Shown here piece after piece: positions 7,645 to 54,879 of a stretch of 64,000 nt of DNA. The stretch lies in assembly GCF_945290125.1 (NCBI RefSeq), contig NZ_CALYQV010000002.1, forward strand, positions 21,010 through 85,009. Direction: 5' to 3'. The position numbers and the translations under genes were made by a program. This stretch comes from an uncultured Lactobacillus sp. Its GTDB lineage: Bacteria; Bacillota; Bacilli; Lactobacillales; Lactobacillaceae. The notes under the pieces were generated by a model, which did not search any database, was not told where the DNA came from, and saw nothing but the letters and a program-made list of their open reading frames with translations. How positions within the stretch are numbered: the stretch's first letter is position 1; every line of letters starts with the position of its first letter.

Positions 7645-9222
7645 ATGTCAGATAAAGTTTACACAGATTATTTCTATAATTCTGAAGATTTTGATAAAAA
7701 CCACCAAATGGGATACAAAGATCTTCATATTCCTGAAGGAGTTGAAGCTCAGCCTTTGATTGTTCCTCCAGTATTAGAGCCTGATAAACAAGAAAATAAC
7801 GATGTTTGGTATACAATCGATTCTCAAGAAGGCGACTTCCAATTTTTGCCAGGGAAAAAGACTCACACATGGGGCTACAACTTCCCAGTTCTTGGTAAGA
7901 CTATGGTTTTAACCAGAGGTCAACACGTTCATGTAACTTTGAAGAACAGCTTACCAGAATTGACTACTTACCACTGGCACGGTATGGAACTTTCAGGTCC
8001 CGGTAACGATGGTGCTTGTCACTCACCAGTATACCCAGGTGAAGAAAAGCAAATTGACTTCATAGTTAAACAACCAGCAGCTTTAACTTGGCTTCATGCT
8101 CACCCATGTCCATCAACTGCCATGCAAGTTTGGATGGGATTAGCTATGGGCGTTGTTATTACTGATGCCAACGAAGCTAAGTTGCCAATTCCTAAGACTT
8201 ACGGCAAGGATGAGTTCCCAATTATTTTGCAAGACCGTATTTTCCACGAAGACAACCAATTTGACTACAAGGCAGACTACAACGCGATGGGCATCTTTGG
8301 CGACACTCCAATCATCAATGGTGTTGTTCGGCCATACGTTGATGTCACTACTCAAAAAGTACGTTTGCTCTTCTTAGGTGGTTCTAACCGTCGTGAATGG
8401 CGCCTGCACTTTAGTGATGACTTGGTAATGACCCAAATCGCCGGTGATGACTCATTCTTGGAGCACCCAGTTAAATTGACTAAAGTCTTAATTGGACCAG
8501 GTGAACGTCAACAAGTAGTTGTTGATTTCAGCAATTATAAAGAAGGCGATGTTGTCAATCTTTACACTGACGACTTCAAGTTGGTTGAATTTAGAATTCA
8601 CAGTTATGAAAAAGATGACAGCGTAATTCCTGATACTTTATTTAAACCATATGATCCAGTTGTTAACCCTAACTCACCAGTTCCTCATGTTACTATGGAT
8701 AACCACAACATGATCAACGGTAAGTTGTTCTCAATGAAAAGAATTGATATGAAGCAGGAATTGATGAATGCTGAATATTGGGATGTAACTAACACTAACG
8801 ATAAAGTTAACGGCATGTTGCACCCATTCCACACTCACGGTGCTCACTTCCTTGTTGTATCACGTAACGGTAAAGAACCATATCCAAACGAAAGAGGAGT
8901 ATACAAGGACACTATCGAAGTAGCACCTCAAGAAACAGTTCGCATAAAGGTTTACTTCCAAAATACTGGTGTCTTCATGTACCACTGCCACATTATCGAG
9001 CACGAAGATGCCGGTATGATGGCGCAAATTCAAATTGTTGATCCAAAAGACCCAGACAAGAAATTTCATTTGATGGACATGGAAACTCTGACTAAAGCTT
9101 TTGCTGAAGAAAGAGGCGTTCCAGAAGATGAAGTCTTCTGCCCAGGTATGGACGTTGAAGGTATGGCAGTTAAAGGTGAAGACCACAGTCTTGACGCTCT
9201 GTCAGGCGCAACTCACCACTAA
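7645..9222 (+). CDS. Cytosolic multicopper oxidase with C-terminal FMN-acceptor-like motif
   Basis: Oxidises a substrate (Cu+, phenols, amines or bilirubin-like compounds in this family) and reduces O2 to water at a four-copper site. All ligand motifs are intact in 525 residues: HWHG (110-113), HAHP (151-154), HPFHTHGAHF (about 397-406) and HCHIIEHEDAGMM from 447, with the type-1 Cys at 448 and an axial Met. There is no signal peptide or Tat motif, so it should be cytoplasmic. Three cupredoxin domains are expected for this CueO/SufI-like size. The last residues read D-A-L-S-G-A-T-H-H (D517-T523), a match to the motif that ApbE-type transferases flavinylate, joined by a flexible acidic segment. 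It is monocistronic, with cre-like control upstream and a terminator just after. Confidence 0.9.
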   Translation: MSDKVYTDYFYNSEDFDKNHQMGYKDLHIPEGVEAQPLIVPPVLEPDKQENNDVWYTIDSQEGDFQFLPGKKTHTWGYNFPVLGKTMVLTRGQHVHVTLKNSLPELTTYHWHGMELSGPGNDGACHSPVYPGEEKQIDFIVKQPAALTWLHAHPCPSTAMQVWMGLAMGVVITDANEAKLPIPKTYGKDEFPIILQDRIFHEDNQFDYKADYNAMGIFGDTPIINGVVRPYVDVTTQKVRLLFLGGSNRREWRLHFSDDLVMTQIAGDDSFLEHPVKLTKVLIGPGERQQVVVDFSNYKEGDVVNLYTDDFKLVEFRIHSYEKDDSVIPDTLFKPYDPVVNPNSPVPHVTMDNHNMINGKLFSMKRIDMKQELMNAEYWDVTNTNDKVNGMLHPFHTHGAHFLVVSRNGKEPYPNERGVYKDTIEVAPQETVRIKVYFQNTGVFMYHCHIIEHEDAGMMAQIQIVDPKDPDKKFHLMDMETLTKAFAEERGVPEDEVFCPGMDVEGMAVKGEDHSLDALSGATHH

Positions 9223-19231: not shown

Positions 19232-20461
19232 TTAAGCTTGAGAAGCACCGGTTACGGCATCTGAACCATTATTTTTCAATTGGTTTTCAGCAGTCACAGG
19301 ATATGGCTTAACTCTTGAAGGATCAGTATTTGACTTTAAGTTATCAGCCGTATAATTAATATGAGTAATCTTAGCATGTTTAACATCGTCAATTGTCTTG
19401 CAGCCGGTCAATTGCATGTCAATTAACAGTTCTTGATTAAGTTGTTCAATAACTGATTGAACACCCTTGGCACCACCCAGTGCTAGACCATATAGATATG
19501 GACGGCCAATACCCACCATATCAGCACCAAGAGCCAAAGCCTTAAAGACGTGCGAACCACGGCGAACACCAGAATCAAAGACAATCGGAACCCGATGATT
19601 AACAGCTTTCGCAATTTCTGGCAACATGTCAATTGTTGCAGGGCCACAATCTACCTCACGACCACCATGGTTAGTGACATAAATACCGTCAGCACCAGCA
19701 CCCATAGCGATATAAGCATCCTCAGCACAAACAACACCTTTAACGAATACAGGTAAGCCAGACATTTCCTTGATACGTCTAACATCTTGTGGGCCAATCT
19801 TTTGGGCCGAAGAAGCATACATTTGAGCTACAGTTTGGCCTTCACCTTTAGCTCCTTGGTAGCGGGTAAAGAAATCTAAAGGTACAGGATAAGCAAAGTT
19901 AGTTCTAAGATTAGCTTCACGAAAGCCAGAAATCAACGCATCTACTGTCAGAAAAATTCCCTTATAGCCGGCTTTCTTAACTGCATCAAAGACCATTTTA
20001 TTAAAGTCCCAGTCTTTACTAAGGTACAGCTGGAAAAAGCGTGGTGCATCTGGAGCTGCTGCAGCAATATCTTCAACGCTCTTATTTGCATATGTACTGG
20101 ATGAAAAGAGTGCACCAGCTGCTGCTGCGCCCTTTTGGGTAGCAATTTCTGCATCCTTATGAGCAATTCCGTGACAAGCAATAGGTGAGATCATCACCGG
20201 TGTTTTCAGTTTCATGTCCATAAATTCAGTATCTAATTGCGGATGATCCATATTAGTCAAAGCACGCGGTACAATTTGAAAATGGTTGAAAGCTGTAGTG
20301 TTGTTACGCCAAGTCCATTCATTTTCAGATCCCGAAGCAATATAATAATATGCTCCTTCAGGCATAACTTCCTTTGCCCGTTCCTCAAGTTCATCGAGGT
20401 TGACCATATTTAAAGCTTCATTACGTTCGCTTTGAGGAAAACCGTTATAATAGTATGTCAT
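19232..20461 (-). CDS. lctO: FMN-dependent L-lactate oxidase with C-terminal FMN-acceptor-like tag
   Basis: Oxidises L-lactate (or another 2-hydroxy acid) to the keto acid, passing electrons to O2 as H2O2. The TIM-barrel motifs are present: YYYIASGSENEW, SPIACHG, FVKGV, and the catalytic THIS-type segment VTNHGGREVD, followed by DSGVRRG and the FMN phosphate-binding GIGRPYLYGL. Aerococcus lactate oxidase is ~374 residues and ends about where the IDDVK segment ends here. This protein has 409, with a ~35-residue polar extension ending D-A-V-T-G-A-S-Q-A (D401-S407), which fits the covalent-FMN acceptor motif. AGGAG precedes the ATG. It is monocistronic with its own terminator. Which hydroxy acid it prefers is not certain. 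Confidence 0.88.
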   Translation of the reverse strand: MTYYYNGFPQSERNEALNMVNLDELEERAKEVMPEGAYYYIASGSENEWTWRNNTTAFNHFQIVPRALTNMDHPQLDTEFMDMKLKTPVMISPIACHGIAHKDAEIATQKGAAAAGALFSSSTYANKSVEDIAAAAPDAPRFFQLYLSKDWDFNKMVFDAVKKAGYKGIFLTVDALISGFREANLRTNFAYPVPLDFFTRYQGAKGEGQTVAQMYASSAQKIGPQDVRRIKEMSGLPVFVKGVVCAEDAYIAMGAGADGIYVTNHGGREVDCGPATIDMLPEIAKAVNHRVPIVFDSGVRRGSHVFKALALGADMVGIGRPYLYGLALGGAKGVQSVIEQLNQELLIDMQLTGCKTIDDVKHAKITHINYTADNLKSNTDPSRVKPYPVTAENQLKNNGSDAVTGASQA

Positions 20462-47041: not shown

Positions 47042-48907
47042 CTACTTACCGTCTTTAGCAGTTTCAGCTGCATCAATTCCGGCTAATCTACCAGAGATAT
47101 AAGCAAAGCCTAAAGTACCACCTTCAAAGTCGACATAAGCCTTACCGTACATTCCAGATGCATCGGCACCAGCTACGTAAAGGTTAGGTACAGGTTCACC
47201 TTTTGGATTCAAAGCATGCATTTTTTCATCAATTGTGGCACCGCCAAGAGTTCCTAGGTTCCGGGCAATAAATTTCACAGCGTAAAATGGTCCGTTTTCT
47301 ACTGGAATCATTCTCTTGGTATCGGAGAAGAACAAATCATCTTCACCCTTCTTCTTAGCATCATTGTATTGCTCAACTGATTTTACCAAGTTTTCCTTGT
47401 CAACACCCATCTTTTCAGCCAATTCTGCAATTGTATTACCAATAAATACAACGTTAGTTGAAGCAAGCTTATTTAATAGTGCAGTAAAGTCTGTCTTCTC
47501 GTGTTCATGCTTAATATTTTCTTCAGTATCTGTTGGATAATTAAATTCCATGTAAAATTCACGGTGATTCTTCCACTTGCTATAGTGATCTTCTATTGCA
47601 ACCGTACCGCCTTCTTTGATCTTATCCAGCATTGCCTGATCTAAAACAACGAATTCAGTTTGTTGTGGTTGTTCTGACAATTCGGCTCCATGCACAGCAA
47701 AATCTAACGCGTGAGTTTCACTGGCATAACGCTGGCCACGATTATTAACGCGCAAGTTTGGAAAGTCTGCCAAAGCATTAACAGGCATCCAGTTGGGGCC
47801 GACAAGTTTAGCCATATCGCCAATATCTTTATTGCTAAATGTTTGCCAGAAGTAATGGGTTGAGCCGTTAATATGATGAGCAGTTCCTGCATCCCAGGCC
47901 ATGTTCAAACCGTCACCGGTGTTTTGCAAAACCTGTCCTTGTGTGCTGACATCACCCAAGTATTCCTTACGCATTTCAGGGTTACCGCCAAAACCACCTG
48001 TGGCAATAACAACTTTCTTAGCATTAACATGGAGCGTTTCTTCATCACTTTCAGCAATTAAGCCAACAACTTTGCCGTCATCATCTTGCAGTAATTTTTT
48101 ACCAGCAAAGCCAAAGTACATCTTGCCACCAATTGACTTGAACTTCTCAATCAATTTAGTTACTGCCTTAGTACCGCCTTCTTGATAGCCATGAAGAGTA
48201 GCCGGCATACCGATATGGTCATAACTGCCGCCAGTACCTGCGTCAACTAATTTCATAATCGCGCCGTTTTCATTTAACCAATCGACGGTTTTACCTGATT
48301 CATCGATGATGCGCCGAACAAGAATTGAGTTCATGTAGCCTTGAGAAGCGTCCATGTATTCGTCATAAAGCCATTTCTTGGAAACGACTGCATCTTGATC
48401 CTTTTGTTGTTGACTGTCGCCAGCAAACATACCTCCGGCAAACGTACTTGCACCAAGTGGAGAAATGGTTTTTTCAAATAAAGCAGCGCTTGCACCATGT
48501 TGACGAGCAGCTAAAGCAGCTGCTACACCAGCACCACCGGCACCAACTACAGCGACGTCAACGTTAATAATCTCTTCTTTCTTACCGGTATTTTGACTGC
48601 CATTTTCTTTAAGAGCATCGTAGTCAACATCAGCTTTATCAAGGGCTTCTTTTACACCCGCAATAATACCACGAGAAGTTTCGGAAGCTCCAGAAACGAC
48701 GTCAACATCAACTGATTGCTGGTCAACAATCTTTTGGGCCATTTTCTTAAATGCATTGTCAGCTAAACTGTCTGGCGCATATTTATCCAATGGTTTAACA
48801 TTAACGATTTTATCTGTGTTTACCTCAACTTCAAGGTTAATTTGGCTTTCTTTGCCTTGACCCGAGCCAGTGTATTTGCCCGGATTTGCAGTTATTTTTT
48901 TGGTCAT
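47042..48907 (-). CDS. FMN_bind + FAD_binding_2 flavoprotein reductase
   Basis: 621 residues. The N-terminal FMN_bind domain (about 1-92, PF04205) has the covalent-FMN motif D-V-V-S-G-A-S at residues 69-75. A linker follows, then a FAD_binding_2 domain (about 115-615) with VAVVGAGGAGVAAA and ATGGFGGN. There is no signal peptide, so it is a cytosolic counterpart of urocanate/cinnamate-type reductases; electrons should pass from a donor through FMN to FAD. The fumarate-binding Arg motifs are absent (HALD and DFEGGT in those places). AAAGGA precedes the ATG. It lies 28 nt after the MFS gene. Confidence 0.88.
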   Translation of the reverse strand: MTKKITANPGKYTGSGQGKESQINLEVEVNTDKIVNVKPLDKYAPDSLADNAFKKMAQKIVDQQSVDVDVVSGASETSRGIIAGVKEALDKADVDYDALKENGSQNTGKKEEIINVDVAVVGAGGAGVAAALAARQHGASAALFEKTISPLGASTFAGGMFAGDSQQQKDQDAVVSKKWLYDEYMDASQGYMNSILVRRIIDESGKTVDWLNENGAIMKLVDAGTGGSYDHIGMPATLHGYQEGGTKAVTKLIEKFKSIGGKMYFGFAGKKLLQDDDGKVVGLIAESDEETLHVNAKKVVIATGGFGGNPEMRKEYLGDVSTQGQVLQNTGDGLNMAWDAGTAHHINGSTHYFWQTFSNKDIGDMAKLVGPNWMPVNALADFPNLRVNNRGQRYASETHALDFAVHGAELSEQPQQTEFVVLDQAMLDKIKEGGTVAIEDHYSKWKNHREFYMEFNYPTDTEENIKHEHEKTDFTALLNKLASTNVVFIGNTIAELAEKMGVDKENLVKSVEQYNDAKKKGEDDLFFSDTKRMIPVENGPFYAVKFIARNLGTLGGATIDEKMHALNPKGEPVPNLYVAGADASGMYGKAYVDFEGGTLGFAYISGRLAGIDAAETAKDGK

Positions 48908-52937: not shown

Positions 52938-54740
52938 TTACTTTATCTTACTTAACGCATCGTTAACAGCATCTTTTAGACCGCGTGACGAACTTGAGGC
53001 ACCACTGACTGCATCAACATCAACGGTATTTTCTTGAACCATTTTGGCAGGTAAAGTCTTGATAGCTTTCAAGCCGTAGTCATCTGACTCAGCTTGTTTC
53101 AAAACTTCAATATTCTTTAAGTTCTTTTGCTCATCAACAGTTACCCGGACGACTATTTCATCACCCATACCTTTAGTTGATTTACCAATATATTGATTTT
53201 CTCCGGTTTCATAGCTTTCGTGTTTAAGATCCGAAGTCAAGTGCTTTTCAGGCACAGTAGCGCCACTTGCTGCATCAGTTGTTGCAGCAACTTTTGGTTT
53301 AGCAGCATTTTCTCCCGCAATCTTGCCCCAAATTAAGCATTCTGCCAGGTTATTACCCCCTTGGTATTGGTTAGCGCAGATTCCACCTAACTCACCAGCA
53401 GAATAAAGATTAGGAATCGCTTTACCTCTGGTATCCAAAATTTCGGCATTCTTATTTCTTCTAGGACCACCTTGTGTATTAAGCATAGTTTGTTCCAGTC
53501 TGACAGCATAAATTGCGTTACCAGTAAATGCACGTAAAGTTGCCGGCTCTCTTCTAAATTCTGGATCATCCTGCTCTTGACATGCTTTATTGAAACGATT
53601 AAGGGTGTCAGACAATACAGAAGGTTCAACCCCAATTTTCTCGGCTAATTCGGAAACAGAGTCAGCCTTGATAACATTTTCTGTGTATGGCTTGTAATCA
53701 CCGATAATTTTATCATTATCTAATTCATGCTTTTTGGTTTCATCAAAAATCAAATACGGGTGCTCTTGATTTAGTGGCACTTTCCATTGACCATGATTCT
53801 TAATATGACCGTGGCGGTTTTCTTCAGTTTCATTAAAGTATCTGGTACCATCATCACCGACAACAAACGAACTGCCGGTAGCAACCGCTTCATTTTGAGG
53901 CCCTAACATTAAACGGCCACGTTGTCCTGCTGGTACCGCAAAAGCCATGCCATGAAGTAAACCTAAAGATTCATAATTATGTAAATGCCAAAAATCAGCG
54001 CCAACCTCCTGAGCCATTCTCAGACCATCACCTTTGTTGTAAAGGGTACCTAAAGGTGCCAGTCTTTTGGCGCCAATAAAGTCTTCAATCATTCTTTGGT
54101 TATTTTCAAAACCACCGGTGGTCATAACAACACCGTTTTTAGCCTGAACTTTGAGTAATTTGCCATCACGCTTAATTACTACACCGTAAATCTTTTTGGT
54201 TTCCGGATCTTGAATTAGTTCTTGAGCAGGTGTGCTGTACAAAACATCAATTTTGTCTTGCCGTTTCACTACCTGCTCTTTTAAAATCTGCCATAAGGAA
54301 GCATCAAACCAATGTTTAGTTACAGTGGTGAAATCATAGGACTCTGAACCTGGAAATTCCGGAAATTCCCTGAAAGCATAGCTTTTATCAGGGGCATATT
54401 CCTTAGCACTATTTGGTTTGACACCCAAATATTTAGAAACATATTCAGGAATGTGCACCATCCCGTCGACATAGGTGTTAATCATCTTTTCGTCAAGTTC
54501 CATTGGCGCCGTTAGTTTCTGATAATACTTTTTCAACTCATCAAAATCATTGCCAGTACCAATTAATTGGGCAGAATAACGGGTATTACCACCTTCGTGC
54601 CCTTCGGGAGCTGCATCAACCAGCAGCACTTTGACATCATGATCAGCCGCAAACCGTGCGGCAGTGGCTCCAGCACCACCAAATCCTAAAACAACAACAT
54701 CATAATTTGCATCCCATGCAATATTCTTGTGATAAATCAT
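52938..54740 (-). CDS. FAD_binding_2 + FMN_bind flavoprotein reductase with a second FMN-acceptor motif in the linker
   Basis: 600 residues from the ATG at 54740, chosen for AAGGAG directly upstream. The FAD_binding_2 part (about 1-485) has VVVLGFGGAGATAARFA and TTGGFENN. A linker holds D-A-A-S-G-A-T (residues 489-495). A C-terminal FMN_bind domain (about 510-600) has its own D-A-V-S-G-A-S (576-582). The domain order is the reverse of the 621-residue reductase. The ANRLGG motif of fumarate reductases is replaced by ANQYQGG. It is monocistronic, divergent from the cupin operon, with a cre-like sequence (AATCGCTTTCA) near 54760. Confidence 0.87.
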   Translation of the reverse strand: MIYHKNIAWDANYDVVVLGFGGAGATAARFAADHDVKVLLVDAAPEGHEGGNTRYSAQLIGTGNDFDELKKYYQKLTAPMELDEKMINTYVDGMVHIPEYVSKYLGVKPNSAKEYAPDKSYAFREFPEFPGSESYDFTTVTKHWFDASLWQILKEQVVKRQDKIDVLYSTPAQELIQDPETKKIYGVVIKRDGKLLKVQAKNGVVMTTGGFENNQRMIEDFIGAKRLAPLGTLYNKGDGLRMAQEVGADFWHLHNYESLGLLHGMAFAVPAGQRGRLMLGPQNEAVATGSSFVVGDDGTRYFNETEENRHGHIKNHGQWKVPLNQEHPYLIFDETKKHELDNDKIIGDYKPYTENVIKADSVSELAEKIGVEPSVLSDTLNRFNKACQEQDDPEFRREPATLRAFTGNAIYAVRLEQTMLNTQGGPRRNKNAEILDTRGKAIPNLYSAGELGGICANQYQGGNNLAECLIWGKIAGENAAKPKVAATTDAASGATVPEKHLTSDLKHESYETGENQYIGKSTKGMGDEIVVRVTVDEQKNLKNIEVLKQAESDDYGLKAIKTLPAKMVQENTVDVDAVSGASSSSRGLKDAVNDALSKIK

Positions 54741-54879
54741 GGTAATCTCCTTAATATAAATCGCTTTCATTAGTCAAATTAATTTTATCACATTATATTT
54801 TTTCAATATATATTATTCAGAAAAACAATAATCAATTATTAATAAATATCAATTAGCTTACGTTTACTGTTAAAATAAC

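Follow-up and report, generated by a model that had tools for sequence, protein, structure and literature searches.

We found that a cytosolic-type CueO/laccase-like multicopper oxidase (MCO; 525 aa, 7645..9222, + strand), encoded in the 64,000-nucleotide stretch of Lactobacillus DNA analysed here (the window), carries a predicted flavinylation tag at its C-terminus. The tag, DALSGAT followed by HH, is an exact match to the ApbE motif D-x-x-[ST]-G-A-[ST], and we put the probability that FMN is covalently attached to this tail at about 0.85. The sequence and its conservation place the tag at 9193..9213 (+) with T523 (codon ACT, 9211-9213) as predicted acceptor; the protein ends in ...GMDVEGMAVKGEDHSLDALSGATHH-stop, with ...KGEDHSLDALSGATHH as its final residues. 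An earlier note on this DNA had already proposed this tag and acceptor, and both were confirmed at these positions when the sequence was re-read. Its wider reading of the tail as a candidate FMN acceptor site is strongly supported by our comparisons: the tag is present in all full-length MCOs of the genus, ApbE is encoded in every genome concerned, and the same tag occurs on other redox enzymes.

Both Cu-oxidase_2 and Cu-oxidase_3 exceeded the Pfam cut-off in the MCO. The copper-site residues H110, H112, H151, H153, H393, H396 and H398, together with H447, C448, H449, H453 and M458, all of which we take to be copper ligands, did not vary across the 41 sequences aligned. Pfam returned Cu-oxidase domains only, with no FMN_bind (PF04205) up to E=1 and no FMN_red (PF03358) fold. 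By reading, no hydrophobic segment was seen in the N-terminus MSDKVYTDYFYNSEDFDK, which agrees with the absence of a signal peptide that the earlier note had claimed. In the AlphaFold model (mean pLDDT 86) the body is confident, and the last 18 residues (508-525; 9166..9219, +), the length of which differs among homologues, have pLDDT values below 50. In this tail, which is predicted to be disordered, the motif is predicted to be accessible to ApbE. The closest chains of solved structures cover residues 3-503, with up to 664 bits. A 99% identical MCO is encoded on the nearest named contig, from the bee-gut species L. melliventris, which places the source genome near this species within Lactobacillus.

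To describe the tag across the genus, we searched 75 genomes for the MCO. Among the 41 that matched, 40 full-length homologues were kept; the match in G062, an 18-residue fragment at a contig edge, was excluded, and the MCO frame of G011 contains a TGA. All 40 homologues carry D-x-x-[ST]-[GSA]-A-[ST] between 1 and 4 residues before the end, with G (29/40), S (9/40) or A (2/40) at position 5. Random C-termini, which the earlier note had set against its own proposal, were thus not seen within the genus. The loose motif, with G, S or A at position 5, was picked after inspection of the data, the strict motif being the one with G. We shuffled the final 60 residues of each of the 40 homologues, with kinship ignored. 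Per protein, the loose motif then fell within the final 15 positions at a rate of 0.00027 (seen: 40/40) and the strict motif at 0.00012 (seen: 29/40). Seven close relatives of the window MCO (L005-L011) have the form DALSSATHH. It counts against the proposal that G is missing in 11/40 tags and that S is the last residue in 31/40, which makes the latter poorer acceptors. For ApbE, a review gives motif substitutions as about 50% for G to A and 10-55% less for T to S (PMC12052999). The changes in the MCO tags (free x positions, S/T swaps, G to S or A) lie near this tolerance, with G to S falling outside the section of the review that was used (PMC12052999).

The codons of the tag point to selection on its residues, because D is encoded by two codons and the second A by three without either residue varying, and position 4 is encoded by TCN, AGY and ACN. 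At positions 2 and 3, by contrast, the residue itself varies freely among the 40 MCOs. In length, the linker ahead of the tag varies between a few and several tens of residues. Two loose motifs were found past the last copper site in 3/40 MCOs (L013, L015 and L035), and further near-copies were seen by eye in L027, L034 and L040. The tails of L027 and L034 also contain His/Met-rich stretches between the tags, which are perhaps copper-binding.

The source genome encodes two ApbE proteins, one lipoprotein-like and one non-lipoprotein (L002). The ORF of the lipoprotein-like ApbE adjoins that of a protein that matches FMN_bind and contains two SGAT motifs, a neighbourhood that we take to resemble the locus for extracellular electron transfer in other Firmicutes. 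L002 ApbE (309 aa; PF02424, E 7.6e-69) showed no signal peptide and no lipobox by reading and would be located, like the MCO, in the cytosol. On the same strand nearby lie a phosphatase-like ORF and an NADPH:FMN reductase (PF03358). A non-lipoprotein ApbE was found in 72/75 genomes of the genus, in 60/60 near-complete ones and in 40/40 with a tagged MCO, although the alignments of two of these 40 (G007 and G074) cross one stop. The other three genomes are all incomplete and did not match the MCO either. A second, L001-like ApbE was found in a long open frame in only 10/40 tagged-MCO genomes (40-43% identical to the query).

In a sample of the order, ApbE was present in 107/118 genomes. Because it is nearly universal both there and in the genus, its presence or absence has no power as a test of the tag, and this test was dropped. 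It is the check that the earlier note had proposed; tag and ApbE occurred together in 40/40 genomes. A point against the proposal is that a full-length MCO is missing in 35/75 genomes (34 without match and one with the 18-residue fragment) compared with ApbE in 72, so the MCO is not a required partner of ApbE.

One feature of the candidate enzyme counts against FMN attachment. The cytosolic kind of ApbE keeps the Ser and His of the FmnB triad, with Glu at the position of the catalytic Asp301 as mapped by hand. This Glu was present in 20/20 ApbE copies parsed from 19 genomes of the genus (L225 left out) and in six ApbEs of the order that are non-lipoprotein by reading (L259, L260, L261, L265, L266 and L278), whereas the lipoprotein-type copies that were read retain Asp. 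Four residues on, most cytosolic copies have Lys where FmnB has Thr. The transferase activity of the cytosolic ApbE is thus putative.

Furthermore, we searched for the tag outside the MCO. At the DNA level, the pattern D..[ST]GA[ST]HH gave 38 matches in 29/75 genomes of the genus and none when the pattern was reversed as a control. Among these matches, 21 were in the MCO (20 genomes), 16 at other C-termini and one was spurious, with a stop inside. The 16 other C-termini belong to eight lactate-oxidase-like (LOX-like) proteins, two of them fragments, six PAS_10 proteins and two fumarate-reductase-like proteins. At the scale of the family, 19/397 genomes matched and the reversed control gave two matches; outside the genus, one of nine matches was credible (L247, genus g21). 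The L247 protein is fumarate-reductase-like and has the tandem terminal tags DANSGAS and DASTGAS. In the loci gathered around tagged genes, and hence in a biased sample, the loose tag ends 124 of 773 distinct ORFs. All 124 are redox families or PAS_10 proteins linked to FMN reductase, as assigned from signature strings and reading, with five representatives assigned by Pfam.

One tagged enzyme is encoded about 10 kb from the MCO in the window itself. This FMN-dependent LOX-like enzyme (19232..20461, − strand) ends in DAVTGAS (19241..19261, −), followed by QA-stop. Its assignment follows from 83% identity, across 408 residues, to a LOX-like protein found in L162/L128, from which the family scores come (FMN_dh E 3.7e-119; TIGR02708 442.6 bits, under the cut-off of 645.5). 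For LOX-like, PAS_10 and pyruvate oxidase (POX) genes, the 30 loci listed per family were followed up. A terminal D-type tag was found on 28/29 parsed LOX-like proteins, to which L185 adds another; L180 has DAVSGAS 21 residues before its end, which reads DTTTGVSVR. The POX proteins, for which TIGR02720 is above cut-off, carry the D-type tag in 27/29 parsed cases, and L296 and L300 end in EATSGAS (D to E). At least two motifs occur in 27 of the POX loci parsed, the distant POX L298 has no tag, and in ten additional loci the loose tag ends 12/12 POX frames. The match of POX to solved pyruvate oxidases stops at query residue 572 or 573, ahead of the tagged tail. In the source genome, POX L311 (G000:C23:12098-13909, −) ends in two flavin tags with an acidic Glu-Pro linker between them.

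Among the PAS_10 proteins, 25/29 read (L203 and L221 included, L223 left out) have the D-type tag. The other four have E for D and were counted as lacking it: L199, L204 and L209 end in EATSGAS and L205 in EATSGASHH. The PAS_10 protein of the source genome (L216; G000:C85:3954-4697, −) has three flavin tags in its tail. Genome G008 has its LOX-like, POX and PAS_10 genes next to one another, each of them tagged. Behind the terminal tag, LOX-like, POX and PAS proteins have QA, QN, EH or AH. Links to FMN reductase and ApbE were found in other genera. In L259:236-1486, from another genus, a single protein combines FMN_red, PAS_10 and two terminal tags and adjoins a cytosolic ApbE; in L261, from a third genus, a tagged PAS_10 protein adjoins ApbE.

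The window also encodes two flavoproteins that are fumarate-reductase-like by reading and match FMN_bind. The first (52938..54770, −) has the FMN_bind motif DAVSGAS (52995-53015, −) and an extra motif, DAASGAT, in a linker (53256-53276, −). A further flavinylation motif outside the FMN_bind motif was also seen in the fumarate-reductase-like protein of L046. The second (47042..48907, −) has an N-terminal FMN_bind domain with the motif DVVSGAS (48683-48703, −). In total, we found 13 FMN_bind matches in the source genome; for 11 of these the frame is 596-678 residues long. Their motifs include the G-to-S variants DVITSAT and DVVTSAS, which parallel the DALSSATHH of the MCOs from L005-L011.

When the surroundings of the MCO gene were compared by eye in 24 loci of the genus, no redox partner was recognised among the conserved neighbours. 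The recurrent ones look like a peptidase-like ORF, which had no NCBIfam match, exporter-like ORFs and uncharacterised ORFs. The copper-operator box TACANNTGTA was found at most 300 bases upstream of the MCO in 2/24 loci (L098 and L105) and was absent from the corresponding 300 bases in the window. A cre-like site, TACAAGCGCTTTCA, lies at about 7564 in the window, 81 bases before the MCO start, with two mismatches, and recurs upstream of many MCOs of the genus. It was set aside, since 322 of 2000 shuffles of the upstream region in the window gave an equal or better site.

We also read the C-termini of 29 MCOs from other Lactobacillaceae genera, taken from 19 of the 252 matching non-genus genomes and from ten further loci, with L069 and L118 left out of this reading. 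None of the 29 ends in the tag; their C-termini read ..MPGM, ..MPGC, ..KMGMxM and similar. In the sample read, the MCO tag is confined to the genus Lactobacillus.

These observations can be combined into a mechanism, in which we infer that FMN is attached, what donates the electrons, which way they flow and that water is formed. The FAD:protein FMN transferase of the cytosol, ApbE, would link FMN to T523 via a phosphoester bond, on a flexible tether roughly 20-30 residues long that follows the last confidently folded segment. An FMN_red-type NAD(P)H:FMN reductase could then reduce the tethered FMN, either directly or via tagged proteins such as PAS_10, and the FMN would hand single electrons to the type-1 copper. 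From there the electrons would feed the trinuclear site, where O2 would be reduced to water. With the flavin near −0.2 V and the potential of type-1 copper well above 0 V, the step from one to the other would be downhill. A supply of electrons from FMN to the type-1 copper of the MCO is plausible, and we lean towards the complete relay, from flavin reductases through T523-bound FMN to type-1 copper with O2 converted to water, as rather probable. A bolder and less probable reading extends this to a membrane-free respiratory chain. Covalent-FMN tails would link LOX, POX, fumarate-type reductases and FMN reductase, with PAS_10 as carrier and the MCO as water-forming terminal oxidase, and electrons would pass in the cytosol by tail-to-tail flavin contact. 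The shared tag on oxygen-linked enzymes hints at an undescribed electron wiring between soluble enzymes.

The tail might also be flavinylated without its FMN acting as donor to copper, serving instead as a pool of bound flavin, as an O2-reactive group or as a Cu(II) reductase and thereby a source of Cu(I) for the enzyme. Such roles would be in keeping with a flexible tag, which can do without a fixed geometry, and with the occurrence of the same tags on unrelated enzymes; however, the tag-ending ORFs are without exception redox families or PAS_10 proteins, albeit in loci gathered around these genes, and this fits electron transfer. We regard a non-donor role as rather doubtful. The remaining explanations do without flavinylation. 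If the tag were a docking peptide that gathers redox enzymes on one scaffold, it would be understandable that several enzymes end in one short peptide, but that peptide equals the FMN_bind motif of the source genome, down to the same permitted variants, and tagged FMN_red and PAS_10 genes adjoin ApbE in two other genera. We therefore consider docking quite improbable.

We judge it very improbable that the tail is a His/Met-rich extension for copper binding or delivery in which the motif is incidental. The positions conserved are D, S/T, A and S/T and not His, and the motif is shared by LOX-like, POX and PAS proteins, none of which is, to our knowledge, a copper family, with QA, QN, EH or AH behind it, even though His/Met-rich tails occur in L027 and L034 and many MCO homologues end in HH. 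That the tag arose by chance or is a functionless inherited sequence is scarcely credible. All 40 homologues come from one genus and are not independent; the turnover of the linker, the free x positions, the synonymous and TCN/AGY codon changes and the repeated copies nevertheless speak against mere inheritance, as does the recurrence of the tag on several unrelated protein families.

If the tail does carry FMN, the bare terminal tag on cytosolic enzymes would add a class of ApbE substrates, and the MCO would be a flavin-copper oxidase of a kind absent from the literature searched. It would also reopen the questions of oxygen handling and of H2O2 production or avoidance in lactobacilli. Flavinylation work, in the part of the literature used, has dealt mainly with proteins outside the cytosol that have FMN_bind or a similar domain. 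Among the matches listed in a search of the open-licence PubMed Central literature, none described flavinylation of an MCO, a lactate oxidase or a pyruvate oxidase, and PMC12052999 mentions a multicopper oxidase once, in a reference title.

Among known systems, the tagged MCO has its family in common with the CueO/laccase-like MCOs of lactic acid bacteria (such as those of Pediococcus, L. sakei and L. plantarum); it differs in its tag, which is missing from the 29 MCOs that we read from other Lactobacillaceae genera. FMN_bind (PF04205) proteins, which include NqrC, RnfG, PplA and fumarate/urocanate reductases, have the same acceptor motif and are modified by ApbE. The MCO differs in having no FMN_bind domain, its motif being a bare peptide at the terminus.

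The tagged PAS_10 proteins resemble LjPAS of L. johnsonii in domain, size and fusion partner, a match by description (PMC4500961). LjPAS is a PAS_10 protein of about 28-30 kDa, fused to FMN reductases in other lactobacilli, and the purified protein slows the initial activity of the H2O2-forming FMN reductase FRedA/B (PMC4500961). In the part of that paper used, the authors read LjPAS as a regulator, and the word 'covalent' occurs 0 times in the main text (PMC4500961).

A bare terminal flavin tag as such is already known, both from FMN_red proteins and from an engineered tool. According to the part of PMC11334425 used, the FMN_red proteins of Lactococcus are flavinylated on disordered C-terminal motifs, as seen with co-expressed ApbE and alanine mutants. 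They bear the same motif as the MCO, likewise on a disordered C-terminal extension (PMC11334425). The Lactococcus proteins have a flavin-binding site of their own near the tag, whereas the MCO is a copper enzyme without a known flavin site. For the engineered flavin-tag, the review section used states that ApbE needs only seven residues and that terminal tags work best (PMC12052999). There a seven-residue terminal motif is enough but man-made, whereas the tag of the MCO is natural and conserved.
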